This document shows positions 3,807 through 30,586 of a stretch of 41,325 nt of DNA, one piece after another (the stretch's first letter is position 1; each line of letters opens with the position of its first letter). Location: positions 1 through 41,325 of IMG/VR virus record IMGVR_UViG_3300022744_000051; one strand, 5' to 3'. The position numbers and the translations under genes were made by a program. The notes beneath the pieces were generated by a model. It was not told the DNA's origin. It did no database searches and saw only the letters and a list, made by a program, of their open reading frames with translations. The DNA comes from a virus.

Positions 3807-4718
3807 TTAACTGATCTCAGCGCGGAAACGGGCGACGGTAGTACTAAAAGCCGCCGCTGCGGGATTAGGCAAAGCAGTGGTCAAGCCACTCGTCGAACTG
3901 GCATACATGATCGGCGCCGTAGAAAGGTCAGTCGTCGTAGTGGACGCTGGAGGGCCGACCAATGTACCCATTGTTGTTGCCGTCACCATCACTCCGACAT
4001 AGAACCAACCGGCTGTACCCACCTTGTAAGGAGCGGTCATAGCAAGTTGCTTACGGGTATTGGCGGCCCATGCTGTTGTTGTTTGATTGGCAGACTGGGC
4101 CAGTAGCACGGGGTTACTTTGGGGGAAAGCGGAGTAAAGGGCGAAAAATTGGTTGGTGGGGCTAGTAAAAGCGGTTGCACAGGTGATCGCTATATTACTA
4201 ACAGTTAAACCCGCGGGGAGCCATATTAGCGATAAGTATAAAGTTCCACTAGTGGGAGCGGTGGTTGCAGTACCAGTCAGGTAGCGCGGGCAAGTCTCCG
4301 CGAGCGTTCCCGTGGTACCATAATTTATAGGAGAAGGCGCAACCGGCGCATAAGGCGCGCCTTGACTGTCGTGGTGCGTCCACCCGCCCATCTCGTCCAG
4401 GACAAGGTTCTCGCCGGGCAGCAGTGTTACACCCATCAGATCGGCGGCATTGGTGCCGTCGAACTGCTGGATGGTCACCTGACAAGACACGGTGGTGCTG
4501 TTGTTCGTCACCCCCATCCATCGGACGTTGCGCTGGACCCCCGCCCCTGGTGACGCCACAATGGTCGTCGTGGTCGCGGTCGTAATCAGCAGGTTGGCCG
4601 GACGCGACGGAGTCACGACCCCGCCGCTGTAATCCGCATACCACGAGTTGATCGTGATCGAGGCCGCAGCGCCCGTGACGATACGAAGAACGTCCGATGT
4701 CGAGGCAAGCATTACCAT
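3807..4718 (-). CDS. Probable virion structural (fibre-associated) protein, 303 aa
   Basis: The start is placed at ATG 4718 because GAGAGGGAC precedes it; the frame is open further upstream, but that part overlaps the previous gene. The protein is rich in Thr, Ala, Ser and Gly with alternating beta strands, including a segment with the jelly-roll-like pattern NNSTTVSCQVTIQQFDG around residues 75-90. This is typical of secreted or virion surface proteins rather than enzymes. It follows two fibre-like genes, so a tail fibre, decoration or receptor-binding role is likely. Confidence 0.62.
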   Translation of the reverse strand: MVMLASTSDVLRIVTGAAASITINSWYADYSGGVVTPSRPANLLITTATTTTIVASPGAGVQRNVRWMGVTNNSTTVSCQVTIQQFDGTNAADLMGVTLLPGENLVLDEMGGWTHHDSQGAPYAPVAPSPINYGTTGTLAETCPRYLTGTATTAPTSGTLYLSLIWLPAGLTVSNIAITCATAFTSPTNQFFALYSAFPQSNPVLLAQSANQTTTAWAANTRKQLAMTAPYKVGTAGWFYVGVMVTATTMGTLVGPPASTTTTDLSTAPIMYASSTSGLTTALPNPAAAAFSTTVARFRAEIS

Positions 4719-4740
4719 GGGAAGTGTCCCTCTCTTACGG

Positions 4741-5526
4741 TTAGGCGAGAACCGTAACGCGATAGGCGTTCGAGGCCGGTGCACTAGCGAAGGTCACAGT
4801 CACATTGTTCGTGTCCGTAGCCACAACGTCTGCGAGAACAAGGGAGTCATCCGCCACAGTTCGGACAGTCACGGAGACGTCCTTTGTACCCAGCGAGTGA
4901 GTGACAGCAATCGAAGTCGAAGCGCCGTTACCGATGTTCGCTGAGAACTTACGGGCAACCACTGCGGTGTCGATGGCGATGCCCGAGCTGATGACGATAC
5001 CCGCGCCAGCAACAGCGCTAACCGCGGAGCCAGCAACGCTGATACCCGTGTTACCCGCGGTCGGTGCAGATCCACCGCCCAACTGCGACCAGGTCGTGGC
5101 CGTGGTGCCGATGGTGATTGTACCGTCTGTGGTAATCATGTAGGCCTTGTCACCGTTCGTAGTACCCTCGGTGACGGTCACCGCGGTGCCGGGGTTCAGT
5201 TCGGTGCCGGTGTCCGCATCAACCGCACGAGTTGGAGCACCCGAAGCGTTGACCGTGTAGATGCCGTTTTCCGAGCCGGTCGACTGGTTCTTGATAAGGA
5301 TACGATCACCCGTTGCCAGCGTCACGCCGTCGATTGACTGACCATTGGCGTAGGCGGTGGCCAGCGCGCCGTTGGCGGTGGTCGCCGCACGAACTGCATT
5401 CTTCCAGCTCAGGCCTCGGGCAACGTTATCCACATACTGCTTGGTTGCGGCATCAGTCGTGGTCGACGGGTCCGCCAGGTTAGTGATCTTCTGGGACTGA
5501 AGATCAAGGCCGTTCATTACCTTCAT
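4741..5526 (-). CDS. Tail fibre-like protein, 261 aa
   Basis: The N-terminal part contains a widespread phage fibre motif: KITNLADPSTTTDAATKQYV (13-32), then GLSWKNAVRAATTAN (38-52) and DGVTLATGDRILIKNQ (66-81). The centre is Thr/Gly-rich, and the C-terminal 70 residues (SIAVTHSLGTKDVSVTV) resemble a trimeric fibre tip domain. Such proteins form virion fibres that contact the host. Start ATG 5526 has AAGGATTAAACC upstream. It belongs to a four-gene fibre cluster. Confidence 0.78.
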   Translation of the reverse strand: MKVMNGLDLQSQKITNLADPSTTTDAATKQYVDNVARGLSWKNAVRAATTANGALATAYANGQSIDGVTLATGDRILIKNQSTGSENGIYTVNASGAPTRAVDADTGTELNPGTAVTVTEGTTNGDKAYMITTDGTITIGTTATTWSQLGGGSAPTAGNTGISVAGSAVSAVAGAGIVISSGIAIDTAVVARKFSANIGNGASTSIAVTHSLGTKDVSVTVRTVADDSLVLADVVATDTNNVTVTFASAPASNAYRVTVLA

Positions 5527-5539
5527 GGTTTAATCCTTC

Positions 5540-5884
5540 TTATAGGAGCAGAACATAGCCCGTCTGCGGGGAGGCGAATACCACGGAGAAATCGGTGGAC
5601 GATGCGTGGATATCCGCAATAACCGCATCGCCACCTGTCAAGAAAACCTGAACCATCGGCTCACGGCCCAGGGGGTGACTCGAGGTCCAGGTAGCTCCCG
5701 CACCGTTGAAGCTGTACTTGGCCGACCCTGTGCCGGCAGGACCTGGGGGTCCTGGGGGACCCGGGATGCCAACATCCTGGAACTCCGCCGAGGTTGTATA
5801 AGACTGGAGGACGAGTGCCGCCACTTCGGTGTCGAAGTGCGCGACCGCCGGGAACGGCTGATCTATGATAGTGACCGATGTCAC
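5540..5884 (-). CDS. Short fibre protein with a collagen-like stretch, 114 aa
   Basis: Uses a GTG start at 5884 that overlaps the previous stop (GTGA). Residues about 40-53 are a short collagen-type repeat (GIPGPPGPPGPAG), followed by a compact domain. Its core, HPLGREPMVQVFLTGGDAV, resembles the tip domain of the neighbouring 261-residue fibre. Collagen-like repeats in phages promote trimerisation of fibres. It is probably a tip or adaptor subunit. Confidence 0.72.
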   Translation of the reverse strand: MTSVTIIDQPFPAVAHFDTEVAALVLQSYTTSAEFQDVGIPGPPGPPGPAGTGSAKYSFNGAGATWTSSHPLGREPMVQVFLTGGDAVIADIHASSTDFSVVFASPQTGYVLLL

Positions 5885-6198
5885 GAACCCAAGTCCACTT
5901 CCACATAGATGGGGTCAGGCGAGTAGCCCGGATTGGAAGCGAAGGTCAAGGCAAGGGAGACGTGGTACTGGTTGTTGACGTTGAGACCCTTGGTCGACGC
6001 CGCGGAGAACTCAAGCTCGCAGACACCGTTCACCGCATCAAGGATGTTGACGGTCGGAGCCACAGCCAGGTTGGTGGAGTAGATAGCGCAGGTTGCGCCG
6101 GTCAAGTCAATCGGCGGGCTGCTGGGTGCGGTAGTCTCACGCCAGGTAAACTGTACCTTCTTGAGTCTGCCGATGAAGACTTTAATTCCAGTAGCCAT
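5881..6198 (-). CDS. Beta-sandwich virion protein (BppU N-domain-like), 105 aa
   Basis: The sequence IKVFIGRLKKVQFTWRET, then PPIDLTGATCAIYS and a final PIYVEVDLGS strand, fits the small beta-sandwich found at the N-terminus of baseplate upper proteins in siphoviruses. It is the first gene of the fibre cluster and overlaps the next one. Its role would be anchoring a fibre to the baseplate; the fold assignment is tentative. Confidence 0.55.
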   Translation of the reverse strand: MATGIKVFIGRLKKVQFTWRETTAPSSPPIDLTGATCAIYSTNLAVAPTVNILDAVNGVCELEFSAASTKGLNVNNQYHVSLALTFASNPGYSPDPIYVEVDLGS

Positions 6199-6231
6199 TG
6201 CCAGACCCCGTCAGGTGTATGGGACCTAATA

Positions 6232-6279
6232 ATAGCCGGCGATATTAAAGAGAATACCTACACCCCGCTCCCCGGCTAT
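6232..6279 (-). terminator. Inverted repeat after thyX, possible terminator or processing site
   Basis: Perfect 8-bp arms, ATAGCCGG (6232-6239) and CCGGCTAT (6272-6279), flank a 32-base loop. On the minus strand the hairpin begins within the thyX stop codon and is followed by TATT. The long loop makes it a weak candidate terminator between thyX and the fibre genes. Confidence 0.4.
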
Positions 6280-7115
6280 CAGAAGACCTCCATGGTGGCT
6301 TCGTGATCGAGCGTCTTGCGGTGCTGGATCCAGCCGGTGAAGTTGCCGTGAAGCTCGGGATGCCGCCATATTACCGGGGTATGGTAATCCGCAAAGTCCG
6401 GAGTGGCCTGGTGCTCGGCGGGTGACGCATGAACCGGCCGGCTTACCACCAGCTTCTCGTACCGCTCTATTTCCGCGTTTACGTCAGCATTGCCATCAAA
6501 GGGCTTATAGCTCAAACGAGCGCAACGGGCCACCGACATCATCTTCAGGGTCTCAATACCCCATCGCCCATCAGATTCCCGCTCGGTTATATAGGGCAAA
6601 TGCCACTGGTCGTAACTCAGCGCCGTAGGCGTCGAAAGGCTTATTTTGTGTCGCATCACTCGCGCTAGCTCGTCAAACTCGGGCTGAGCGTACTCAGAAA
6701 TGCGAAGATCGAAGAAATTTTCCCAGTGCGTTGATGTCACGAGTACGTCGATCCACCCGAACCACTCAAGCGGCCTATTCGCATGTTGCTTGTGCATCCC
6801 CTCCGCCTGCCATCGATTGACCACCGCTCGACAGGTCTCCGCAAGGATCTCCCATTCATCGGCCCACTTCTGCTGAAGCTCGGGGGGTGCCACAATGTCG
6901 GATTGCATTCCGGGCTTGTTCATCCCGAACGTGGGCACGAACAGCGGCTCGGTCAACAACACCTTACTGGGAACCGCTCGACTACTACGGGCGTTGCGAC
7001 TAAAGACGCGATGGGTCATCAGCTCAGAGTGGATCGCTCGCCAGTACCGAAGGTGGAAGGTCGTGAGCCTAATACCCGCGGGGCTGATACTATCACAGAT
7101 TACGTTGGCAAACAT
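6279..7115 (-). CDS. thyX: FAD-dependent thymidylate synthase ThyX
   Basis: Converts dUMP to dTMP with methylene-tetrahydrofolate, FAD and NADPH, without making dihydrofolate. The signature helix is present as THRVFSRNARSSRA (34-47), matching the ThyX pattern RHRxxSxxxxSxR except that the first Arg is Thr, a form I associate with phage ThyX. The C-terminal part contains HASPAEHQA (about 230-238), another ThyX feature. At 278 residues it is slightly longer than the usual 220-250. It is the last enzyme gene of the small-gene operon and its start overlaps the previous stop (TAATG). Confidence 0.92.
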   Translation of the reverse strand: MFANVICDSISPAGIRLTTFHLRYWRAIHSELMTHRVFSRNARSSRAVPSKVLLTEPLFVPTFGMNKPGMQSDIVAPPELQQKWADEWEILAETCRAVVNRWQAEGMHKQHANRPLEWFGWIDVLVTSTHWENFFDLRISEYAQPEFDELARVMRHKISLSTPTALSYDQWHLPYITERESDGRWGIETLKMMSVARCARLSYKPFDGNADVNAEIERYEKLVVSRPVHASPAEHQATPDFADYHTPVIWRHPELHGNFTGWIQHRKTLDHEATMEVF

Positions 7116-7303
7116 TAGCGCTTCCTTGCATATTTCATGAGAAAGGTGAAAGTCTCGAAGTCGTCGAGTGTGCGGCGAGCTTGTCGAGTGACCGACTGAA
7201 CAATGACCTCCTTCTTTTCGATGCGGTCAGTCAAGCTATGAAGCTCGCGGACCACTTCCTCTCCGTTAAGGGCGAAACGGAAACTCTTCTTCTCCCCGCT
7301 CAT
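7115..7303 (-). CDS. Hypothetical protein, 62 aa
   Basis: A small, highly charged and mostly helical protein (many Arg, Lys and Glu). Its stop overlaps the thyX start and its own start overlaps the preceding gene as ATGA, so it is translated as part of a coupled chain. No motif recognised. Confidence 0.62.
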   Translation of the reverse strand: MSGEKKSFRFALNGEEVVRELHSLTDRIEKKEVIVQSVTRQARRTLDDFETFTFLMKYARKR

Positions 7304-7497
7304 CGAAAAAACTCCCCATCCGGTCCAATAAGAACATCATCGTGGATGTAGGCGAGCGTCTCAATCTCGGCCCCCCCATGATCTATCCCACAAAGGATCC
7401 AAGTTGGAAACTCTTCCTGCGGAGGCCAGTTTCGCTGCTCGTCATCAGTCAACTGGCGAAGGACCAACGACCGATTAAGTAGTGTCTCCAATTTCAT
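7300..7497 (-). CDS. Hypothetical protein, 65 aa
   Basis: An acidic protein with DDEQRNWPPQEEFPTW in the centre and a GPDGEFFR end. It overlaps both neighbours by four bases (ATGA), consistent with a coupled operon. No family recognised. Confidence 0.6.
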   Translation of the reverse strand: MKLETLLNRSLVLRQLTDDEQRNWPPQEEFPTWILCGIDHGGAEIETLAYIHDDVLIGPDGEFFR

Positions 7498-11868: not shown

Positions 11869-11884
11869 TCACGTAATTACGTGA
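11869..11884. repeat. Perfect 16-bp palindrome, operator-like
   Basis: TCACGTAATTACGTGA is a perfect palindrome just upstream of the strongest promoter in the window. Near-copies occur at 12461, 12540, 13985, 14304 and 14491. The position suits a binding site for a dimeric regulator. Confidence 0.7.
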
Positions 11885-12033
11885 CTCTTCAAACCTAGAA
11901 AATATGGGTTGGGCCCTGGTACGTGTGACATGAAAAATTTTTGAAATATTATTACGTCGGTGTTACATGAAATTACGTGAACAATGCAAGGTGATCGTAT
12001 GTTTACGTTATCACATTGCATCATGCATTATCG

Positions 12034-12429
12034 TTATTCGCTTTCGACGTTTGCAACAACATCATTTGATTGCGTGTTATTCTTTCGCGCATTACGTTTC
12101 GCGTTGCGTTCGCGTTTGATGCGTTTCGTTTCGCGTTCGATGCGTTCGCGCAATTCGTTCGCATATCGCGTATCAATCGTGCATCGATACAAATTGTATT
12201 CGTCGTCATTGTGAATGATATGTGATGTATTCATGATGCGTTCAATTGATTTGTTCGCACGAATTTTTGCGCGAATGCGTTTCGCGTCGTCATTAAACGT
12301 TTCATTGCGTGATGCATAATCGTCGCAAATTTCGTTAATCAACGTTTTCAAAACGATTGGATATAAACGCGATTTCGTGTTGTTCTTTACGTTGCGTGTC
12401 ATTGCGTGTTTCGCTTTCGTATTTATCAA
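12034..12429 (-). CDS. Highly charged 131-aa protein inside the abnormal block
   Basis: The frame opens with TTG at 12429 (or ATG 12402, giving 122 residues). There is no Shine-Dalgarno, because AG and GG are nearly absent here. The product has no Gly or Trp and only one Pro and one Gln. It is rich in Asn, Arg, Lys, Glu and Ile and ends in a long charged helix (ELRERIERETKRIKRER). Lys is mostly AAA, Glu always GAA, Arg always CGN. It could be a nucleic-acid-binding coiled protein, or a frame left open by the odd composition. Downstream of an iterated-dyad array it might be an origin-linked protein, but that is speculation. Confidence 0.45.
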   Translation of the reverse strand: MINTKAKHAMTRNVKNNTKSRLYPIVLKTLINEICDDYASRNETFNDDAKRIRAKIRANKSIERIMNTSHIIHNDDEYNLYRCTIDTRYANELRERIERETKRIKRERNAKRNARKNNTQSNDVVANVESE

Positions 12430-12555
12430 ATCGCGTAATTGCGTTTTGATGTGTTCAATTTAACGCGATTACGTGAAACAACAAACGAATAAAAACGATT
12501 AAACAATATGCGATTAATCACCTTTTATCGTTTGTCGTTTCACGCGATTGCGTGT
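12365..12555. repeat. Array of 16-bp dyads upstream of the 131-aa frame
   Basis: Related near-palindromes built on GATT, GTAATT or GTCATT centres occur at about 12365-12380, 12393-12407, 12431-12446, 12461-12476 (TAACGCGATTACGTGA) and 12540-12555 (TCACGCGATTGCGTGT). Spacing is irregular. The cluster in an AT-richer block resembles an iteron-type origin or a multi-site operator. Confidence 0.55.
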
Positions 12556-12603
12556 ATTATACGTGTATTGAATCGATGAACGTTTAATCAAACAAACAAC
12601 GTT

Positions 12604-12802
12604 CGGGTGTAATGGGAGCGACGGCGTGTGAGATTTTGCGGAAGTTTGGCCGAGCTTTGGGCCACCCGTGGTGCACAGTCGCAGTGGACCCGCCATGGCC
12701 GACCCGTACTACACGGACTCTAACAGCGGAACCACCCCGGCTTGGCCGATCTTTTTGCGGAGATCCTCAAAAGCCCCCACGTATTCGCGGAGGCTCAGAG
12801 AT
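12604..12802. other. Non-coding stretch with degenerate repeats
   Basis: No convincing gene on either strand. Short words are shared with 14.13-14.18 kb, such as CACGGACTCTAACA (12713-12726 and again near 14170) next to GACCCGCC. Short frames on both strands lack ribosome binding sites. Confidence 0.4.
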
Positions 12803-14023: not shown

Positions 14024-14397
14024 TCATTTTATGCTGCCGCATCCTCACAGCAGAGCCACCATATTCATTGTACTATTCGCGTACTATCGCGGACATAGAT
14101 TTTTCTTTGTCACGCACTTACATGTATGCTTATCCTCACGGCAGACCCGCCGTTCTCAACCCCACCCGCACGGACTCTAACACTCTCCACTCCATCACGC
14201 ACTTACATGTACACGCACTTGCGTGAGACCTTCAGAGCGCGGCTCTAAGGTGGTCCGGCTGCCCCAATATCACCCAATCCCACCTATATTCCCAATACCC
14301 ATATCACGTAATTACGTTAAGGGTCGCGCACATGCGCCCGCGCGGGGGTACAACAACCATCAATTAATACATATTTTTATTCATTTTTTCTTTAACA

Positions 14398-15123: not shown

Positions 15124-15507
15124 TTATTTACGACCTCTGGACGATACGCGCACAATGCGTATATCATCATTATCGATAGGAATGCCTCGGAGGCGTCGGT
15201 TCTCGTAATGCAGTTCCTGCAGAGCGGCGATGAGTTGGTCCTTGGTCAAGTCCCGGACATCCACACCCTTGTAGGTGAGCGCCGAGACGAACAGGGGGTC
15301 TATGATATGAGCCAGACACTCATTCCAGGACTTATCATACCACTCGGACGAGGAGTCGAGGTGGTCGAGAGATATTTGGTGGTACTTGCCGTACCAATTC
15401 AAGGCGTCGGCGCCTCTCAGCACCACGTAGCTGCTGCCCGCGTAAAGTATGAAAGAGTCGTCGTCCTGCCTCACGCGATACCGGTCGGTGACTTCAAGGT
15501 CTATCAC
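15124..15507 (-). CDS. Hypothetical protein, 127 aa, GTG start
   Basis: The start is placed at GTG 15507, which has AAGGAGAAGCTCA upstream; the open frame extends to 15546 without a better signal. Residues 1-35 look like a beta domain (DRYRVRQDDDSFILYAG). The last 40 residues include a helix (LTKDQLIAALQELHYENRRLRG, read in part) resembling a short coiled coil. Function unknown. Confidence 0.6.
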   Translation of the reverse strand: MIDLEVTDRYRVRQDDDSFILYAGSSYVVLRGADALNWYGKYHQISLDHLDSSSEWYDKSWNECLAHIIDPLFVSALTYKGVDVRDLTKDQLIAALQELHYENRRLRGIPIDNDDIRIVRVSSRGRK

Positions 15508-22137: not shown

Positions 22138-24054
22138 TTATTCTTCTTCGTCCTTGTCGAGGATCCAGTACTCCTCGCCTTTCTTCTTCTTAATGGTAAC
22201 GTTCATCTTGGAACCGGCCCGCTTGAGAAGTTTGCTGTCGATACTGCGCTTCTCACCCATGCGAATAAGTTTGCTGAGTTCGACAGCGACCCCGGCTATA
22301 GTTGACTCGAGGAATTCCATCGCGTCTTGCATGTGGTCACCCTGAGTACCCTTGGTCCTCGCCTCGTGAGAAGCAGCGAGGATCATGTCAGCGGTAAGCT
22401 CAGTGTACTCACCCCAGACGAATTCCGCGTTATTACCCTTCTTGGCATTGATGTTGAACGTTAAGCCCTTCGCCATTGGTGCAAGGTTATTCTTCGCCTG
22501 AGCCATAACGCGAGTGTCGGTATCGTCCGGGTGACAGCCAAAGGTGATGACGATACGAGCAGAACCGGTGAAGGACATTGACCCGGACCCCGCGGTGATT
22601 GCAGAGCCCCGGCTCTTTGTCAAGTGTCGGATAACAACGACCGCACAGTCGAAGTCTTTCGACAGCTGCACAAACCAGTTCATAGCCTGCGTGGCCTCGG
22701 AACCTTTGTGGGTATCCGCCTTACCGATGTATGTATTGAGAGTGTCGAAGCATATAGCCACAGGGCGAATGAGTTCGAGGTGCTCGTAGATCAGTGCTTG
22801 GGCGTCGGGATCCTCGATGCTGAAGGCCTGCTCCACAACGATGTAGTTCTTCAGTTTATCGAAGCCGTTGTAGGAGAGTCGGACTTTGGTAACAGAGCCG
22901 GCGTTGTTTTCAATGTCGAAGTATACGACGGGCCCGGATGTAAAGGGCATGCTGGGCCGAGGACTGGGGAGTTTCTCGCCACAAGCAATCGAGGCGAAGG
23001 CGATCATGGAGGCGAAGGATTTACCGAGGCCGGGATCACCTTCCCATAGAGTGACAGTTTTACGAGCGAGGTAGGGATACCAGATCCAAGCGATGTCCTC
23101 GGCCTCAATGTCTGCCAGGGGCTGGAAGTTGAGCATAGGTGCCCGGCGACCAACCTCCTCGTCGGATTCTTCTTGGTCGGATCCTCGTTTGAGTCTGTCT
23201 TTACCCCCGGGTGCTGCCCGGAAGTGATGATCTACGATCTTGCTCAGCTCTCGGCGAAGATGCTCATCCTCATTGCGTCGGTCCTTGAACTTATTCCAGG
23301 GGCAACGCTTGATGACAGCGAAGGCCTCATCGAGAGACATGCCCGCTTCAACGCAAGCGTTCTCCAGCTTCCAAAGCATCTCACTGCGATCAGCCTTCCC
23401 GGTGATCCGCTTAGCGATCAGCTCACGCCTCACCCACTGTGGAAGCTTCTTCTCATACTGAGAGAATACTTCGGCGGGATTAAGATCATTGCCGTCAATC
23501 TCGCCCAGTTCATCTTCCGGGGGAAGTAGCTTATTAAGCTTACGTATCGTGTATGTCGGTCCGTCGTCCCATAGTACGCGGACAATGGGCTGAGACGAGT
23601 ATTTGTAATTGCGAGTTCCCGGGTAGCGAAGCAGCTGTGTCGTATCCCACCCGCTCGGGTCTGCGCCTACGTGGTAAGTAAGGCGTCGGTTCAACGCCTC
23701 GGTGACCGGCTTGTTTGTTACCCACAGCCCGACGAAGCGGCCCGGCGACGACTCAATGAGGATTGTCGGCTTTAGGCCGTGAAACTGTTTATCCGAACGG
23801 GGGTCAGCTTCATCAAGGTCTGCCCACAGGAGGTTAGGTAGTTCGGCCTCTTCCTTGTTACGGACACGACGATTAAATCCATGAGGACAGAAGTAGATGT
23901 CTTTGTCGGCGTTGTCCTTGATGAACTGCCTGATCTTACCGAACTCGTCCGTTCCAAAGAAGTGAGTTCCAAAAGTTCCCGCCCCCGATTTGGTACAGAT
24001 ACAAAAGAAACGCCCCGGCTGATCCCGCCAGATGTCAGTTATTGATATTGTCAC
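22138..24054 (-). CDS. Fused DNA primase and RepA-type replicative helicase, 638 aa
   Basis: Primes and unwinds DNA at the phage replication fork. The N-terminal 180 residues match the RepB/AEP-type primase pattern: LWADLDEADP (76-85, with D79 and D81 as likely metal ligands) and LLRYPGTRNYK (141-151). The C-terminal half is a RecA-fold hexameric helicase of the RepA/AAA_25 type. Its Walker A is EGDPGLGKS (338-346) and its Walker B strand ends in FD at 436-437 (PVAICFDTLN). A charged linker (280-305) separates the two. The start is GTG 24054, overlapping the excisionase-like gene by 20 bases. It is the first large gene from the leftward divergent promoter. Confidence 0.87.
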   Translation of the reverse strand: MTISITDIWRDQPGRFFCICTKSGAGTFGTHFFGTDEFGKIRQFIKDNADKDIYFCPHGFNRRVRNKEEAELPNLLWADLDEADPRSDKQFHGLKPTILIESSPGRFVGLWVTNKPVTEALNRRLTYHVGADPSGWDTTQLLRYPGTRNYKYSSQPIVRVLWDDGPTYTIRKLNKLLPPEDELGEIDGNDLNPAEVFSQYEKKLPQWVRRELIAKRITGKADRSEMLWKLENACVEAGMSLDEAFAVIKRCPWNKFKDRRNEDEHLRRELSKIVDHHFRAAPGGKDRLKRGSDQEESDEEVGRRAPMLNFQPLADIEAEDIAWIWYPYLARKTVTLWEGDPGLGKSFASMIAFASIACGEKLPSPRPSMPFTSGPVVYFDIENNAGSVTKVRLSYNGFDKLKNYIVVEQAFSIEDPDAQALIYEHLELIRPVAICFDTLNTYIGKADTHKGSEATQAMNWFVQLSKDFDCAVVVIRHLTKSRGSAITAGSGSMSFTGSARIVITFGCHPDDTDTRVMAQAKNNLAPMAKGLTFNINAKKGNNAEFVWGEYTELTADMILAASHEARTKGTQGDHMQDAMEFLESTIAGVAVELSKLIRMGEKRSIDSKLLKRAGSKMNVTIKKKKGEEYWILDKDEEE

Positions 24055-24235
24055 TGGCTTCGTCCCTTTCCTTCTTCAACCTCTCTACTTCCGACTTGGG
24101 TATAAGAACCATTCGGTCGTTGGGACGCTCGACAATAACCGTACCCCTGTGGATACGTTGATGAAGGGCCATAAAGCTGATGCCAATCTCTTTAGCAGCA
24201 GCCCTTACGCCATAATAATCTTGCAAACTCTTCAC
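24035..24235 (-). CDS. Excisionase/MerR-like small DNA-binding protein, 66 aa
   Basis: Residues 6-50 (YYGVRAAAKEIGISFMALHQ, then RIHRGTVIVERPNDRMVLIP) fit the small winged-helix pattern of excisionase and MerR-type N-domains. The last 15 residues are a charged helix. Start GTG 24235 has GGGGTGATTT upstream. It lies directly below the overlapping divergent promoters and is the first gene of the leftward unit, so it may control the switch or assist the primase at an origin. Confidence 0.68.
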   Translation of the reverse strand: MKSLQDYYGVRAAAKEIGISFMALHQRIHRGTVIVERPNDRMVLIPKSEVERLKKERDEASDNINN

Positions 24236-24247
24236 AAATCACCCCGG

Positions 24248-24277
24248 TTGACAATGGCGGCGAACTCGGAATATACT
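24248..24277 (+). promoter_or_regulatory. Rightward promoter of the replication arm
   Basis: TTGACA (24248-24253), 18-bp spacer, TATACT (24272-24277). The first rightward gene starts at 24323. It shares its -10 region with the leftward promoter. Confidence 0.72.
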
Positions 24278-24298
24278 GTCAAATCATTTAACGATCAA
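24270..24298 (-). promoter_or_regulatory. Leftward promoter of the primase-helicase unit
   Basis: On the minus strand TTGATC (24293-24298), 17-bp spacer, TATATT (24270-24275). The -10 overlaps that of the rightward promoter, so both cannot be open at once. Confidence 0.65.
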
Positions 24299-24322
24299 CC
24301 CCTATGGAAAAAGGATTTTTTG

Positions 24323-24817
24323 ATGGCCATCATCATCGAGGGAATGGACAATTCCGGGAAGTCTACGCTGGCCGTACGGCTGGCTGATTATATGGGCTTG
24401 GTCGTGCGAGAAAGTGAAGGGCCTCCTCGGTCGGACGAAGAGATCAACGCACGGGTGGATGCCTATGAGCAGCTCTCAGGTGTTCTCTTTGTTCGTCATC
24501 CCGTTATCTCTAACGCGATCTATGGATCGGTTCGTCCCAAAGGGAATCCGATCACTCCCGGCAGGGAGATGCTGTTCTACGAGCAGCCTCATGTCTTTAT
24601 ATATTGTGACGCGGGCAATCGTGGCCTAGGCGCTCACGTAGAAAAGGCTCACGATACTCCTCAACACCTCGAGGACATTACCAACAATTACAATAAGCTC
24701 CTGTATCTTTACAGGCAGTGGGCTGCGGAACACGCTCACTTTATCTACCGCATCGGCGACGATATGGATCAGCTGATTGCGACGATCTATTTCCACCACT
24801 GTTACTCAGTAGCTTAA
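24323..24817 (+). CDS. Deoxynucleoside/thymidylate monophosphate kinase-like P-loop protein, 164 aa
   Basis: The start is placed at ATG 24323 (AAGGATTTTTTG upstream); the longer open frame includes the promoter. The P-loop GMDNSGKST (7-15) and the segment LFVRHPVISNAIYGS (about 56-70), in the place of the DR motif, fit the thymidylate kinase family. That family transfers phosphate from ATP to a dNMP. At 164 residues it is shorter than typical enzymes. Given the next genes it may phosphorylate a modified dCMP, the role played by a different enzyme (gp1) in T4. Substrate is inferred, not shown. Confidence 0.78.
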   Translation: MAIIIEGMDNSGKSTLAVRLADYMGLVVRESEGPPRSDEEINARVDAYEQLSGVLFVRHPVISNAIYGSVRPKGNPITPGREMLFYEQPHVFIYCDAGNRGLGAHVEKAHDTPQHLEDITNNYNKLLYLYRQWAAEHAHFIYRIGDDMDQLIATIYFHHCYSVA

Positions 24818-24828
24818 GGAGCTCAGCG

Positions 24829-25722
24829 ATGTTTATTCCAACTCACCGCCACAAGAATGGCGGCCTTTATCAGCGTCTAGGCACCATGGAAGGGAAGCCC
24901 GAGGGTCCCGACGTAGGATGGCAGCCGGGAGTTGCCTACCGAAATGAGGCGGAAGAAATGTTCTGGACCCACAGGGAGCGATGGGATGAAGGGTTCGACA
25001 CAATTGAGGACTCGGATACTCGGGATGAGATAATCTGGGAGGACCATGTTAATGTCTCCGCCTTCCGCTTCTCCCTTGTGGAAGCCACGGACGTTTTCTA
25101 TATGATTTCCCGTGCGGGGCCCGTTACCGGTCATGCCCTAAGCTCGGAGTTTATCAGCTGGATGAAGCGGCTGTTTTCGGTACAGGCGGAGATGATTTCC
25201 GATAACCTGCACATCCGGGACCACGACTTCCCTGATATGATCGGGGATGTTAACGCCTTCCACGCTAAGTTCGGTCAGGAATATACAGGTAAGCCCCGGT
25301 TGCTTCCGGATGACCTCCATGACTTCCGCCACAAGTTCCACATGGAGGAGACCCATGAGTACCACGACGAGTACCCTAAGCTGCTGGACGCGGTTGCCCG
25401 CCAAGATCGTCGAGACATTGTTAACGCACTGGAAACCCAACTGGACTCTCTGGTTGATGCTGCTTGGGTGATCCTCGGCACTGCAGATGTCCAATTTGGT
25501 CGTCGGGCATTCATTGAGGCCTGGCGCCGGGTGGTGAAGGCTAACATGGCCAAGATCCGGAAGGATAATACCACCGACGGAGATGGTAGCGTTGACTCCG
25601 GTCGCGCACCGAAGTACGATATTGTCAAGCCCGCTGGTTGGGAAGCTCCCGATCATCGTGATCTTGTCTCGGACAACGCGATCTTCGACGAGCTGTTTGG
25701 CTCGGCGGACATGAAGGAGTAA
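24829..25722 (+). CDS. MazG-like nucleotide pyrophosphohydrolase with N-terminal DUF1653-like region, 297 aa
   Basis: The start is at ATG 24829 with AAGGAG upstream. Residues 5-60 resemble a DUF1653-type domain (HRHKNGGLYQRLG ... YRNEAEEMFW). Residues about 139-245 are an all-alpha NTP pyrophosphohydrolase: the metal motif is HMEETHEYHDE (171-181, with E173, E174 and E177), and DSLVDAAWVILG (207-218) supplies D207 and D210. This superfamily includes MazG, dUTPases and the T4 dCTPase. Beside dCMP hydroxymethylase-like genes, removal of unmodified dCTP is a reasonable inference. Substrate unknown. Confidence 0.82.
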   Translation: MFIPTHRHKNGGLYQRLGTMEGKPEGPDVGWQPGVAYRNEAEEMFWTHRERWDEGFDTIEDSDTRDEIIWEDHVNVSAFRFSLVEATDVFYMISRAGPVTGHALSSEFISWMKRLFSVQAEMISDNLHIRDHDFPDMIGDVNAFHAKFGQEYTGKPRLLPDDLHDFRHKFHMEETHEYHDEYPKLLDAVARQDRRDIVNALETQLDSLVDAAWVILGTADVQFGRRAFIEAWRRVVKANMAKIRKDNTTDGDGSVDSGRAPKYDIVKPAGWEAPDHRDLVSDNAIFDELFGSADMKE

Positions 25723-25727
25723 GTGCT

Positions 25728-26561
25728 TTGAAGGATGAGTGGATCAAGGAAGTCCTTAGACTTTCCCGAATGCCCGCGGACTTCTACTCGGGATGCCGAA
25801 AGATTATCCAGGGTAGACAAACGAAGTTCATGGACCTGTGGGATGATGAGGATCCGCTCATCCTCGAGGACTGTGGATACACCAAGTCGAAGATGGCTCA
25901 CCTTACCCGGGGGTACTTACATGAGGAAAGCCTTGAGGCCGCACACATGCTCTGGAAGCTACGGCGTACTAAGACGTCTTATGGTTCTGCGGGTTTTACA
26001 ACCTATAATCACTTCCTTAAAAACGATGCCGTTAAGAAATCCAAACGAGCATCTGTTATGGGACCTTGTATTCAGGCAATTACCCTGACGCAGATAAAGG
26101 GTGGTAAGAATGGTAAGTATTCCATCGATGCCTTCTATCGTACCACGGAGATACTGAAGAAGTTCCCCGCGGACTTGATTTTTATCCGGGATGTCCTGCT
26201 TAAGGATTTTGACTTCTCCGGCATGGAATTCACGGGGATGACTTGTCACTTCGCCAATGTTACTATCCACCCTCAGTACTTTGTGACTGCTATCCCTCAC
26301 CTCGAGGATCCTATCCGTGAGCTGGAAAAGATCAAGCGTAAGGATAAGTATTTCTATGACTGGATTATCAAATGGACCGCCAGGTACTTATGCGATGAAC
26401 ACTTTAGGGGCATTGAGAAGTTTGCTCAGGCTCTCCGCGTCAAAGTCGATGCCGACAAACGTATCCGCGGAAAGGATCGCCGTCTTCTCGCTGCTTACCT
26501 TCGAGAAAACCACCCCGGACACCGGAGTGAATATGAAGCCCCAGAGGAGGACGAAGAATGA
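25728..26561 (+). CDS. Divergent thymidylate-synthase-fold protein, 277 aa
   Basis: TTG start at 25728 with AAGGAG eight bases upstream. The region from 108 to 185 lines up with the thymidylate synthase core: GPC (112-114, with C114 as the nucleophile), FYRTTE (136-141, in place of YQRSxD), FPADL (146-150, in place of PFNI) and FTGMTCHF (168-175, in place of WTGGDTHLY). D149 takes the place of the Asn that selects dUMP, as in dCMP-using enzymes. The N-terminal 90 residues are helical and unfamiliar, and the last 40 are basic then acidic. It overlaps the next synthase-like gene by ATGA. It could be a dCMP-modifying enzyme or partner subunit. Confidence 0.68.
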   Translation: MKDEWIKEVLRLSRMPADFYSGCRKIIQGRQTKFMDLWDDEDPLILEDCGYTKSKMAHLTRGYLHEESLEAAHMLWKLRRTKTSYGSAGFTTYNHFLKNDAVKKSKRASVMGPCIQAITLTQIKGGKNGKYSIDAFYRTTEILKKFPADLIFIRDVLLKDFDFSGMEFTGMTCHFANVTIHPQYFVTAIPHLEDPIRELEKIKRKDKYFYDWIIKWTARYLCDEHFRGIEKFAQALRVKVDADKRIRGKDRRLLAAYLRENHPGHRSEYEAPEEDEE

Positions 26562-27403
26562 TCTTCAAGACGTTTGATGAAGCCCAGAAGCAACTGCGCG
26601 AGGACATGGTTAACCTCGCTCCACTAGTGCATTCCCGCCGGTGGCAAGGTGCTGAGATTGCGAACAATCCCAACATGGCAACCTATGAGCTGACCCACAC
26701 TCATTTCGTAGTGGACCTGTCCGGGTTAGAAGAGGACATCGAGGCCTACCAGAGAGACATCCGACCCGACCTTCCCTGGGCGGAGGATCACTTCCTTGAG
26801 CGAGTATGTGGATCACCGATCAACCCCGGCACTCACTGGGCGAATTGGGCCCACAATAATAAGGCGGGTGCAGCTCACTTCCTTGATGAGCGCGGCAAGT
26901 TCAACCACAACTACATGGAACGGTACTGGCCTAAGTACGCCGGCGCTGTGCAGCAACCCACCGAGCTGAAGGATGACTGGCGCTCGAGGTTCCGGTATAT
27001 CTCTCAGGAGCGGGGAGTACCCACGGCGCATAGAGGCATCATGTATGAGTACGGCGATCTATCAGATGTTGTCTCGCTCCTCGCGGAGGACCCCTATACT
27101 CGTCAGGCCTACTTCCCCGTCTGGTTCCCCGAGGACACCGGCGGCGGATCGAAGAGGACGCCCTGCACCCTCGGCTACCACTTTCTTATGAGGGAAGGTC
27201 GGCTGGACATCAACTACCACATTCGGAGCTGCGACTTCTACAAACACTTCCGGAATGACCTCTACCTGACTGTCCGTCTCCTCCTGTGGGTATTGAAGGC
27301 TGTTCGTTCCCGCAATCTCGAGTGGAACGACGTAGTACCCGGTTACTTCGTCATGGAGATCGGCTCACTCCATGTATTCAAGATGGACTGGGATAAGATC
27401 TGA
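26558..27403 (+). CDS. dCMP hydroxymethyltransferase-like enzyme, 281 aa
   Basis: The expected reaction is dCMP plus methylene-tetrahydrofolate to 5-hydroxymethyl-dCMP. Residues 181-275 match the thymidylate synthase superfamily and especially T4 dCMP hydroxymethylase: TRQAYFPVW (181-189), TPC with C203, IRSCD (222-226), FRND (231-234) and IGSLHVF (268-274). T4 has FRND and GSLHV at the same places. D234 replaces the Asn that reads uracil O4, the known determinant of cytosine preference. ATG 26558 overlaps the previous stop and has GAGGAGGACGAAGA upstream. It is coupled to the 64-residue and dCMP deaminase genes. A dUMP-using relative remains possible but less likely. Confidence 0.82.
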   Translation: MIFKTFDEAQKQLREDMVNLAPLVHSRRWQGAEIANNPNMATYELTHTHFVVDLSGLEEDIEAYQRDIRPDLPWAEDHFLERVCGSPINPGTHWANWAHNNKAGAAHFLDERGKFNHNYMERYWPKYAGAVQQPTELKDDWRSRFRYISQERGVPTAHRGIMYEYGDLSDVVSLLAEDPYTRQAYFPVWFPEDTGGGSKRTPCTLGYHFLMREGRLDINYHIRSCDFYKHFRNDLYLTVRLLLWVLKAVRSRNLEWNDVVPGYFVMEIGSLHVFKMDWDKI

Positions 27404-27597
27404 TGCAGATCACCACCGCCTATATGATCGGGGACCGCGTCACTATCGACCGTGATGAGTCCCTGGTCGGTGTTATCACCGCGATCAGCATCCGCGGCGA
27501 GGGGTTAAACATCACCTATGAGGTCAGCTACATTCATTGTGGAAGTAGTCATGCTCCGTGGGTCGAGCAATGGAGGATTAACAAATGGCAAGGGTAA
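27403..27597 (+). CDS. Small beta-barrel-like protein, 64 aa
   Basis: ATG 27403 overlaps the hydroxymethylase stop (TGATG). The strand pattern (YMIGDRVTIDRDESLVGVIT, then YEVSYIHCGSSHAPWVEQW) suggests an SH3- or KOW-like small barrel. It lies between two nucleotide enzymes and overlaps the deaminase start by 13 bases. Function unknown. Confidence 0.6.
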   Translation: MQITTAYMIGDRVTIDRDESLVGVITAISIRGEGLNITYEVSYIHCGSSHAPWVEQWRINKWQG

Positions 27598-28082
27598 GTC
27601 GACAGCAGATGTTCATGGGGATTGCAAGGCTCGCTTCACAGCGGGCCACTTGCTTTCGCCTAAACGTCGGAGCCATGGTAGTCCATGACAACAATCCAAT
27701 CGCCATGGGGTACAATGGACAGCGACCGGGAGAGGATCACTGTCAAGGAAACGAATGCCCCGGCATCATCCCCGGCAACTGTGGTACCTTCCACGCCGAG
27801 GTGAACGCGCTGACGAAAGCTTCGACCTTGCTTGCCAGCAGCGCAGGCGTCGGTAAGTGGCCCGCCGAAGTCGATCTGTACTGCACAGATAGCCCCTGCG
27901 GGTATTGTACTACCTTCATCCTTGAGAATACCCCGCTGAGGGTTACTCGGATATTCTACGGTACGCCCTATCGAGATACCTCACACCTCGGTCGGTTCTT
28001 CGGCATTACCGAGGTTTATCAAATCACCCCGGCAGGTTATATTGTCGATCACTTTACTCGGAAAGTTATCGAGCTACCATGA
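27585..28082 (+). CDS. dCMP deaminase, 165 aa
   Basis: Converts dCMP to dUMP, feeding ThyX and draining unmodified dCMP. The zinc site of the cytidine/dCMP deaminase family is present: HAE (70-72, with E72 catalytic) and PCGYC (104-108, with C105 and C108 as zinc ligands). Length is normal for phage dCMP deaminases. The extra segment CQGNECPGIIPGNCG (53-67), with three more Cys, may bind the second zinc seen in T4-type enzymes. ATG 27585 follows GGAGGATTAACAA; the stop overlaps the polymerase start. Confidence 0.9.
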   Translation: MARVSRQQMFMGIARLASQRATCFRLNVGAMVVHDNNPIAMGYNGQRPGEDHCQGNECPGIIPGNCGTFHAEVNALTKASTLLASSAGVGKWPAEVDLYCTDSPCGYCTTFILENTPLRVTRIFYGTPYRDTSHLGRFFGITEVYQITPAGYIVDHFTRKVIELP

Positions 28083-30586
28083 CCAAAGAGATCATGATTA
28101 TTGGGGAACACCCCGACCTTAACCCCCGCGGTAAGTCCATTCTCTACAATGCGATGGCTTCCGCGGGGTTCGACGAGGATGACTTTCGGATGATAACGGT
28201 GCTCGATGAGGCACCCCCGGAAGGCAAGAACATCACCAAGACAATGATTAAGGCGAGCCGGGATAAGCTCCTAAGGCGCGTCGAGAAGAGGGATCCCAAG
28301 TATGTTGTGCTCCTTGGTAACACCGCCTGCCAAGCTTTCCTTGATGAGTCCGGTATTAAGAAGCTTCGTGGCAAGCCCTCGGATAAAAACGGACGAGTCG
28401 TACTACCCATCCTGCATCCCTATCAAGCCCTACACGATGACAAATGGATCAGTGTCATTGAAGGGGATCTACAACGCCTCAAGGAATGTGTTAAGTTCGG
28501 GGGTATTCCTGAGGAACGGTCGCTTGACTATCATATTGTGGATACCCGATCAAAACTCCGACAGATGTTGGAAGACCTACAGGGGACGGTAGCAGTAGAC
28601 CTTGAAACCACAAGGTTGTATCCTTTTACCACCCTACAAGATGAGCGGATAGAAAAGAAGCAGGTGAATGATGCCCTGCTTAAGGCCCACAAGGCGACCC
28701 ATAGCTCGAACAACCTGCCCCGGGTGGTAGCAATGCAGTTCGGGTGCCGCAAGCGTCAATGGGTAGTACCCATGGAGACCGCCGGCATCTGGACTCGTGA
28801 AGAGCTGGAGGGCATTGTCAAGGCTGTCACCAAGAGGCTGAAGCGTTGTAAGACGGTATTCCACAATGGGAAGTTCGATGCCCTGTGGATGCGCGTTCGG
28901 TTCGGCGTAAAGTGGCGAGTAGACTTCGACACAATGCTGGCGCACTACTTGATCGATGAGAACGACCTTCACGGCCTAAAGTACCTCGCTCAGCGATATT
29001 TGGGCGTTGCTGACTGGGATGTCGAGGGCGGTGTAAAGACTGCCTGGTCGATGAAGAACGCGAAGTACGCGGCCCACGACGTCTTCTATACTCGTAAGCT
29101 GTACTTCATCCTTCGTAAGATGCTCCGTGAAGACTCGGATACCGAGCGTGTCTTTAACCTGGTGATGATGCCCTGCGTTAAGCTGTTCATCGAGGTTGAG
29201 TATAACGGGGTATACATCAATCTCGATAAGATGGACGATGCTGAGGTCTACCTCCGTGATGAGCTTAACTTCGCCCTGGTAAACCTTGAGAAGTGGGGCA
29301 AGAAGGCGACGAAGGTTGATGCGAAAGGCCCCAATAAAGGCAAGATCAATTGGGGTAGTGCTGATCAGCTGGGCAACCTGCTGTTCAAGGACCTCAAGAT
29401 TAAGTCGATTGAAAAAACGAAAGGCGGCAAAGACAGTGTTAGCGAATCCGTCCTCCTCCGTATCGATCATCCCATGGTCGGCGACCTTCTCAAGTACCGA
29501 GCTGCATCGAAGCAACTCAGCAGCTTCATTGAAGGCTGGCGTCCTTACATTGACACAGACGGGAGACTCCATCCAGTATTCAAATTGCATGGTACTGTTA
29601 CCGGCCGCCTGTCTTGCGAGCATCCCAATCTCCAACAAGTCCCCCGAGATCCTCGCATCAGAACTCTTATCACAGCTCCTCCGGGATGGACGCTTCTTGA
29701 GATGGATCTCAGCCAGATTGAGCTTCGCATTGCCGCCGAGCTTGCAAATGAGTATAACCTCCTCAGCGTATTCAACTCAGGGGGTGATCCTCACTGGCAA
29801 ACTGCAATTCGAGAGATAGAACGAGGCGCAGGATACAAGAAAGAGATTATCGAGACCGTCAAGCTTCACCACAAGCACGAGGGCAAAGAATACGAAAAGA
29901 TGTCCTACAGCCAGGCGGTTGAGTACATACTCGCGATAGGCGGCGATGTCGCGGCCGACATGATGAGTATGTGGAAGGAAGTCCGTAAGAAGGCGAAGGC
30001 TATTAACTTCGGGTACCTTTATGGTATGTGGTGGAAGAAGTTCAAGATTTACGCCCGGGATAACTATGGAGTCGATGTTACCGACGAGGAAGCACAGGCG
30101 AGCCGTGAGGCATTCTTCGAGCTTTACTCGGGGTTTCCCAAGTGGCATGAGAAGCAACGCCGGTTTGCACAGGTGAATGGCTACGTTAGGTCACCCTCCG
30201 GTCGCAAGCGTCGCCTCCCCGCGGCAACAGTTGGCCGGGACACCCCGGAGCGTCGAGAAGCTCAGCGGCAGGCAATTAACAGCCCGGTGCAGTCCTTCGC
30301 TAATGAGCTTAACCTCATGGCAGCCCTACAGATGAGAAAGGAGTTCAGCTGGAATTGGTTCCGACCCTGCGGTACGGTCCACGACGCTACCCTTATGTGG
30401 GTACGGGATGACAAGCTCCAGTATGTCTGGGATCGGGGATTAGAAATTATGAGCGGACCCGAGTTGTTGACAGACTTCGAGATTAAGCTATCAGTACCCA
30501 TTTGTGCTGATGCTAAGGCGGGCCCTTGGGGCGCGGGTAAGGACCTTCAGAAGTGGCTATCCCTTAAAGGGGAACCATCATGCTAG
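28079..30586 (+). CDS. Uracil-DNA-glycosylase-like / family A DNA polymerase fusion, 835 aa
   Basis: Replicative polymerase. Residues 1-135 resemble a uracil-DNA-glycosylase-superfamily domain (GEHPDLNPRG, VVLLGNTACQAF, LPILHPYQAL). Then a 3'-5' exonuclease: Exo I AVDLETT (D174, E176), Exo II HNGKFD (D267), Exo III YAAHD (Y330, D334). Polymerase motif A is MDLSQIELR with D543. Motif B is RKKAKAINFGYLYG (636-649), with F644 at the position that excludes dideoxynucleotides. Motif C reads VHDA (767-770), where most family members have HDE. A roughly 65-residue insert lies between motifs A and B. ATG 28079 overlaps the deaminase stop. Confidence 0.93.
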   Translation: MTKEIMIIGEHPDLNPRGKSILYNAMASAGFDEDDFRMITVLDEAPPEGKNITKTMIKASRDKLLRRVEKRDPKYVVLLGNTACQAFLDESGIKKLRGKPSDKNGRVVLPILHPYQALHDDKWISVIEGDLQRLKECVKFGGIPEERSLDYHIVDTRSKLRQMLEDLQGTVAVDLETTRLYPFTTLQDERIEKKQVNDALLKAHKATHSSNNLPRVVAMQFGCRKRQWVVPMETAGIWTREELEGIVKAVTKRLKRCKTVFHNGKFDALWMRVRFGVKWRVDFDTMLAHYLIDENDLHGLKYLAQRYLGVADWDVEGGVKTAWSMKNAKYAAHDVFYTRKLYFILRKMLREDSDTERVFNLVMMPCVKLFIEVEYNGVYINLDKMDDAEVYLRDELNFALVNLEKWGKKATKVDAKGPNKGKINWGSADQLGNLLFKDLKIKSIEKTKGGKDSVSESVLLRIDHPMVGDLLKYRAASKQLSSFIEGWRPYIDTDGRLHPVFKLHGTVTGRLSCEHPNLQQVPRDPRIRTLITAPPGWTLLEMDLSQIELRIAAELANEYNLLSVFNSGGDPHWQTAIREIERGAGYKKEIIETVKLHHKHEGKEYEKMSYSQAVEYILAIGGDVAADMMSMWKEVRKKAKAINFGYLYGMWWKKFKIYARDNYGVDVTDEEAQASREAFFELYSGFPKWHEKQRRFAQVNGYVRSPSGRKRRLPAATVGRDTPERREAQRQAINSPVQSFANELNLMAALQMRKEFSWNWFRPCGTVHDATLMWVRDDKLQYVWDRGLEIMSGPELLTDFEIKLSVPICADAKAGPWGAGKDLQKWLSLKGEPSC

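Follow-up and report, generated by a model that had tools for sequence, protein, structure and literature searches.

A conserved phage promoter-gene unit nearly free of AG and GG steps on its sense strand

Introduction

Phage genomes shed restriction sites genome-wide. In such motif avoidance, as at the locus described here, short words are lost through synonymous codons and amino-acid changes are tolerated. Dinucleotides can also be targets of chemistry. In phages M6, ViI and W-14, DNA is modified at single dinucleotides (TG/TC) by way of a hydroxymethylated pyrimidine intermediate, features that a cytosine modification of the kind considered below would share (PMC6449724). T4-type phages and the cytosine-modified phages found by MetaGPA carry an Asp-type thymidylate-synthase homologue, a pyrophosphohydrolase and a dCMP deaminase, as does the phage studied here, and this domain set together with the Asp marks contigs with modified cytosine (PMC8670742). 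The mRNA ADP-ribosyltransferase CmdT shows that one mRNA dinucleotide, when single-stranded, can be a target (PMC11618068).

We analyzed a stretch of viral DNA of 41,325 nucleotides, hereafter the window (IMG/VR virus record IMGVR_UViG_3300022744_000051, positions 1 to 41,325). A preliminary description, made from the letters of the sequence, had pointed to a block at 11994-12603 almost free of AG, CT, GG and CC. We know of no case in which a single transcription unit sheds dinucleotide classes, giving up glycine and proline to do so, in an otherwise normal genome, and a limited search of the open-access literature returned no case of whole dinucleotide classes being lost from one unit with the rest normal. 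If the pattern reflects real selection, the sequence reports an undescribed constraint, chemical or enzymatic, under which the earliest genes are expressed. Such a constraint is testable by synonymous recoding, since the same promoter is found in front of both depleted and undepleted homologues.

Results

One block in the window is nearly free of AG, CT, GG and CC

The four steps occur seven times in 12001-12600 (AG 0, CT 5, GG 1, CC 1), exactly the number first counted by hand, compared to 116 expected from the region's own base composition (observed/expected ratio, o/e, 0.06). In 5000 mononucleotide shuffles of the same region the mean was 115.9 (SD 7.6, minimum 87), which places the observed count at z = -14.3. 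The median o/e across the window is 0.99, and the other 600-nt windows (n = 131) all have values of at least 0.74. Within the block, the longest run without any of the four steps is 276 nt (12083-12359).

When the limits were set by maximal-scoring segments, the region lacking nearly all AG/GG (RG) and CC/CT (CY) steps on both strands proved slightly wider than first proposed, covering 11919-12605 on the plus strand (score 76) and 11917-12650 on the minus strand (score 73). Segment scoring and the 600-nt windows agree on one strong depleted block in the window and not on many similar ones. As the preliminary description held, this is not ordinary AT-richness: CpG is raised in the block (o/e 3.15), and the block of one relative, at 49% GC, is as depleted as that of the window.

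The block comprises a small conserved gene and its promoter

What occupies 11919-12605 is a gene for a small, conserved phage protein and the promoter that precedes it, so that the depletion spans an open frame and adjoining non-coding DNA, as had been claimed. The coding sequence (12034-12402, minus strand) begins with ATG, with a possible TTG start at 12429, and encodes a basic protein of 122 amino acids that contains zero glycine and one proline. Searches of the protein against Pfam and PHROG gave no match above threshold. An AlphaFold2 model (mean pLDDT 70) has helices at residues 18-31, 40-49, 66-76 and 78-110, which predicts a helical, helix-turn-helix-like core; Foldseek with this model of moderate confidence gave no significant match.

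We considered whether the frame is a mere by-product of missing stop codons. Under a Markov null a frame of 122 codons is not rare (P = 0.07), which does not decide the matter, and the homologues in relatives rule the possibility out. A separate 71-codon frame antisense to the gene (11999-12214, plus strand) has a plausible AAGGTGAT ribosome site; we found no convincing homologue of it, and it is probably a by-product of absent stop codons.

The DNA polymerase pointed to relatives: Polewnik and Strzyga, both phages of Brevundimonas (59% identity), together with the Desulfofustis phage MD02 and with MW202777 (both about 50%). Single-protein searches reached no viral contigs. A search with an alignment of the RepB-type primase did, yielding 24 viral contigs, most of which were read whole. 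The relatives are mostly metagenomic contigs; Polewnik is also labelled L002 and MD02 L004. Homologues of the window gene are present in G001, G002, G003, G004, G005, G006, G009 and G010. A family HMM built from relatives and the window protein matches the window protein, a member of its seed, at E = 9.5e-37 and detects a further member outside the seed, G019, at E = 1.6e-31; a protein-alignment scan added a homologue in L092. Identity within the family is 27-41%, with invariant K-R-R-N-R-D-Y-R columns. Homology over the whole protein and the shared promoter and position assign the window frame, from sequence, to this family of small proteins, which we call A-type.

At the corresponding place, MD02, MW202777, Polewnik, G013, G015 and all four of G024-G027 encode a basic protein with a helix-turn-helix-like C-terminus (B-type). 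B-type is possibly related to A-type, as suggested mainly by the shared promoter and position; by profile comparison the link is weak, with an hhalign probability of 7.9. Between the 3' end of the primase gene and the family gene, which has the same orientation, there are about 6-10 kb, a distance that assumes a circular map for about half of the contigs. In several relatives, a small ORF for a hydrophobic, predicted membrane-type peptide follows the family gene inside the RG-poor segment (L058 19351-19434; L044 1702-1779; L039 6094-6204; L055 about 4680-4856, minus strand), and none was seen after the gene in the window.

A predicted sigma-70-type promoter precedes the window gene (12457-12484, minus strand), with -35 TTGTTG (12484-12479), a 16-nt spacer and -10 TAAATT (12462-12457). 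In an alignment with promoters from relatives, such as TTGACA-N17-TATATT, it is a weak match with 4 mismatches, the weakest of the set. The alignment also reveals a conserved element where transcription is predicted to start, CATCAAAACGCAATTACGCG in the window (12432-12451, minus strand) and CATCGAAACGCAATNACGCG in relatives. When viral contigs were scanned for its pattern, this start element turned up directly after -10-like sequences in other phages as well; in L111-L127, CATCGAAACGCAATAACGCG follows a -10-like sequence and is common to phages with unrelated downstream genes. There is no strong depletion at the element in these unrelated phages, so that having this promoter is not in itself enough to bring about the depletion.

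The preliminary description also took the block to rule out Shine-Dalgarno sequences. The signal is indeed weakened, to an AAAG (12414-12417, minus strand) 11 nt before the ATG, but it is not strictly excluded. Relatives outside the strict trio defined below mostly have AAAAGGA as their Shine-Dalgarno-like sequence. The AG steps that remain on the sense (minus) strand within 12001-12600 occur in AAAG context, one of them preceding the start codon. The sole AGG on this strand is AAAAGGTGA, which lies upstream of the promoter in an imperfect inverted repeat inside the block (12463-12553; 40-nt arms, 78% complementary).

Other repeats surround the locus. Palindromes of the CACGTAATTACGTG type flank it in the window (11870-11884 and 14307-14318) and in relatives, and further copies lie between genes. 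Upstream of the gene there are arrays of words that are palindromic or repeated (TTGGCCAA, TTAACGTTAA, gggtggagaaactctttaat) and that differ between phages, at L031 11080-11260, L044 600-1180, L055 5360-5520, L058 18540-18790 and L004 850-1120; these are possibly operator arrays.

Relatives are depleted at the same gene, mostly on the sense strand

Every depleted genome has one locus that stands out, and it is at the family gene. Sense RG o/e of the gene is 0.07 in the window, 0.09 in G001, 0.05 in G005, 0.09 in G010, 0.12 in G003 and 0.14 in G009; further depleted members are MD02 (0.20), Polewnik (0.22), G023 (0.31), G004 (0.33) and L005 (0.38). Mild or no depletion is seen in G002 (0.56), G026 (0.61), G019 (0.63), G015 (0.65), G027 (0.70), G013 (0.76) and G024 (0.82), so that some homologues with the same promoter are not depleted. 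For sense RG, the family gene is lowest or second lowest among the 44-83 ORFs of each of 11 genomes ranked. Sense CY is almost absent in the window, G001 and G005 only (0.03-0.06) and is 0.34-0.99 elsewhere; we refer to these three, which have lost both RG and CY, as the strict trio. RG was below CY in 10 of 10 non-strict genes compared, although these samples are not independent. In the gene-content table, no gene is clearly confined to depleted phages.

RG and CY profiles were aligned on the start element, ignoring the -500 to -300 bin of the non-strict set, which is invalid. RG o/e in the non-strict set is about 1 upstream, falls to 0.66 at the promoter and 0.14 around the start, stays at 0.24-0.28 within the gene and is back to 0.95 by +700. 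Values in the strict trio are 0.00-0.06 for RG and CY alike, on either strand, between about -60 and about +350. Depletion fades 500-700 nt downstream of the conserved promoter. In MD02 the RG-poor segment ends at 1708, adjoining an intrinsic-terminator-like hairpin. L005 is less clear-cut, having a second unit beside the family gene in which sense CY is depleted more than RG.

Polewnik departs from this pattern. Its RG-poor plus strand extends over 3952-7437, beyond a terminator-like hairpin at about 6037-6066, and the part past the hairpin (6066-7437, about 1.4 kb) is antisense to a conserved gene (6288-6860, minus strand). This stretch contradicts a simple transcript model. Polewnik also has repeated promoter-gene cassettes with the same promoter element (4035-6015), in which sense RG is depleted and CY is 0.6-0.9; downstream of its start-element copies at 4015, 4505 and 5029, sense RG is 0.12-0.23. 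These and other copies in depleted phages (0.43 at 396 in MD02; 0.46 at 15206 in G010) show milder downstream loss. In about 2 Mb of phage sequence scanned for similar blocks, some of it overlapping, weaker segments in L113/L121 and L123, which are other phages, were found beside the same promoter element, on the strand opposite the transcript.

Depleted relatives have in common a sense strand that lacks AG/GG between the promoter and roughly the end of the unit; stated for the template strand, CpC/CpT are missing. We are highly confident in the description of a conserved gene and its promoter that avoid these steps at this one locus, with a bias in strand.

Nearly all avoidable steps in the unit have been replaced

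The window gene contains 4 RG and CY steps, although its protein could be encoded with as few as 2, and synonymous codons drawn at random yield about 52; every one of 300 random synonymous versions had at least 40. Codons in depleted members are correspondingly skewed: GAA:GAG 43:1 for Glu, CAA:CAG 19:0 for Gln, TCN:AGY 75:2 for Ser and CGN:AGR 122:0 for Arg, with CGG absent. The sole tolerated exception is AAG (template CTT), which accounts for 36 of 123 Lys codons. At two aligned sites, the Gly of undepleted homologues is Asn in MD02, a replacement that needs two base changes and speaks against mutation pressure. In G005, G010 and Polewnik the depletion has left GC undiminished, and CpG shows a 2-3 fold excess. 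These results lead us to reject mutational decay of CpY, the C-pyrimidine step, by deamination. AT-richness and codon bias are likewise rejected, by the CpG excess, the shuffles and the synonymous recoding counts.

The counts show that nearly all avoidable purine-G steps in the unit, and in this phage every avoidable C-pyrimidine step as well, have been replaced. Something appears to select against AG/GG steps exactly where the family gene is transcribed.

The window encodes a putative cytosine-modification kit

On the plus strand, the window encodes a putative base-modification kit. It consists of a nucleoside-monophosphate-kinase-like protein (24032-24817; phrog_761 thymidylate kinase, E = 3.3e-11), a nucleotide pyrophosphohydrolase-like protein (24718-25722; phrog_671, E = 9.1e-15), a thymidylate-synthase-family enzyme that is a putative dCMP hydroxymethylase (26558-27403; PF00303, E = 2.1e-6; motif RSCDFYKHFRND) and a dCMP-deaminase-family protein that also matches MafB19-like deaminase (27585-28082; PF00383, E = 5.2e-17; PF14437, E = 5.9e-10; phrog_174, E = 4.5e-28). 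The thymidylate-synthase homologue has the dCMP-selecting Asp (E. coli position 177; closest PDB chains 1njc/1njd), and so do 16 of 16 group members compared. This residue would place the window with cytosine-modified phages of the dCMP-hydroxymethylase type. The same kit and Asp are found in the little depleted or undepleted relatives G019, G013, G015, G024 and G027, indicating that the kit does not predict depletion. The adjacent family A DNA polymerase (28079-30586) carries a fused N-terminal uracil-DNA-glycosylase-like domain (PF03167, E = 5e-9).

Discussion

We regard it as quite plausible, if short of probable, that the unit is a chemically exempt locus, spared either a context-specific cytosine modification or an attack on purine-G in RNA that handicaps everything else.

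Our tentative preference is for the first of these, with the locus as a modification-free island for a first-expressed gene. The gene set of these phages would place modified cytosine in their DNA, and cytosine before a pyrimidine would receive a further, bulkier modification. Modified template-strand CpY would then hinder host RNA polymerase on incoming DNA, and a gene needed at once would gain from having zero modified template cytosines. Since sense RG is template CpY, such a modification would fit the position and strand bias of the depletion, and also the strict trio if both strands matter, as CpY loss on both strands would free the promoter region too. The near-minimal step use, the shunning of AG-type codons and the rank of the gene agree with this reading. 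So do the onset of RG loss at the promoter and its end by +700, or beside the hairpin in MD02, and the presence of the Asp throughout the group with the kinase, pyrophosphohydrolase and deaminase. Early expression of the family gene is suggested by its promoter type. Several results count against the modification-free island: the kit is equally present in little or undepleted relatives, no enzyme for a CpY-specific step was found, other presumably early genes are not depleted, and the RG-poor strand of Polewnik crosses a terminator and an opposite-strand gene. Tolerance of AAG means that the rule is not simply CpY. We know of no enzyme specific for CpY. Phage hypermodification specific for dinucleotides does have a precedent, for thymidine at TG/TC (PMC6449724).

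Almost as likely, and similarly tentative, is avoidance at the RNA level. Here the transcript would be selected to lack AG/GG because a factor acts on purine-G in single-stranded mRNA, such as an endoribonuclease, an mRNA-modifying toxin or an RNA-binding regulator, with the unit expressed while that factor is active. The greater depletion of the sense strand in all ten non-strict members compared favors this reading, as do a depletion that sets in where transcription is predicted to start and that stops, in MD02, at the terminator, and the precedent of CmdT, which modifies GA in single-stranded RNA (PMC11618068). However, GA itself is not depleted in family genes (o/e 0.88-1.48), no purine-G factor was found, and RNA-level avoidance does not explain why the strict trio has lost CC/CT just as completely, including about 100 bp upstream of the promoter, or the antisense stretch past the terminator in Polewnik.

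We consider it improbable that the sequence avoids a nuclease or CRISPR PAM (NRG) on double-stranded DNA and thereby shields a first-expressed anti-defence gene. The RG/CY-free DNA of the strict trio has neither NGG nor NAG on either strand, and a small, fast-evolving protein may be of the anti-defence type. However, a factor that reads two bases in double-stranded DNA would affect both strands alike, and most members are strongly sense-biased; moreover, the remainder of the genome is full of sites and AAG is tolerated.

A replication or priming feature, namely a zone near an origin free of DnaG-type primer starts, fares no better. DnaG-type primers start with pppAG or pppGG on template CTN or CC, and the avoided template words are those of bacterial primases. 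In Polewnik, plus-strand depletion ends in an AT-rich stretch where minus-strand depletion starts. Against this, the zone coincides with a promoter-gene unit, and G003 and MD02 do not show the orientation that diverging forks would produce. Across 12 genomes, several of them partial contigs, GC-skew extrema take no consistent position with respect to the locus; the raw minimum of the window (11500) lies close, but the others disagree. An Rfam search gave chance matches only.

Foreign DNA or mutation pressure such as CpY deamination, acting without selection, is very unlikely to have produced the composition, despite its sharp contrast with the flanks and the lower GC of the window and G001 copies relative to their own genomes, because homologues occupy the same place relative to the primase in relatives, no match was found in the phages, plasmids and bacterial genome contigs searched, and the rule applied genome-wide would leave no glycine (GGN) or proline (CCN) encodable. 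Thus, of the three ideas in the preliminary description, foreign origin is not supported, a replication origin is disfavored by depletion that is tied to the promoter and biased towards the transcript strand, and motif avoidance is the best of the set.

Comparison with the closest known systems sets this locus apart. The T4-type and MetaGPA phages share its nucleotide enzymes (PMC8670742), but a search for a carbamoyltransferase in the present phages found none. In M6, ViI and W-14 the modified base is thymine, not cytosine, and the available part of that account reports no modification-free locus (PMC6449724); the window also has no identified hypermodifying enzyme. CmdT targets GA, whereas here AG/GG are missing and GA is normal (PMC11618068). 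Compared to motif avoidance across phage genomes, the loss described here is confined to one locus, concerns dinucleotides, has its edge at a promoter and, in most members, is biased to one strand.
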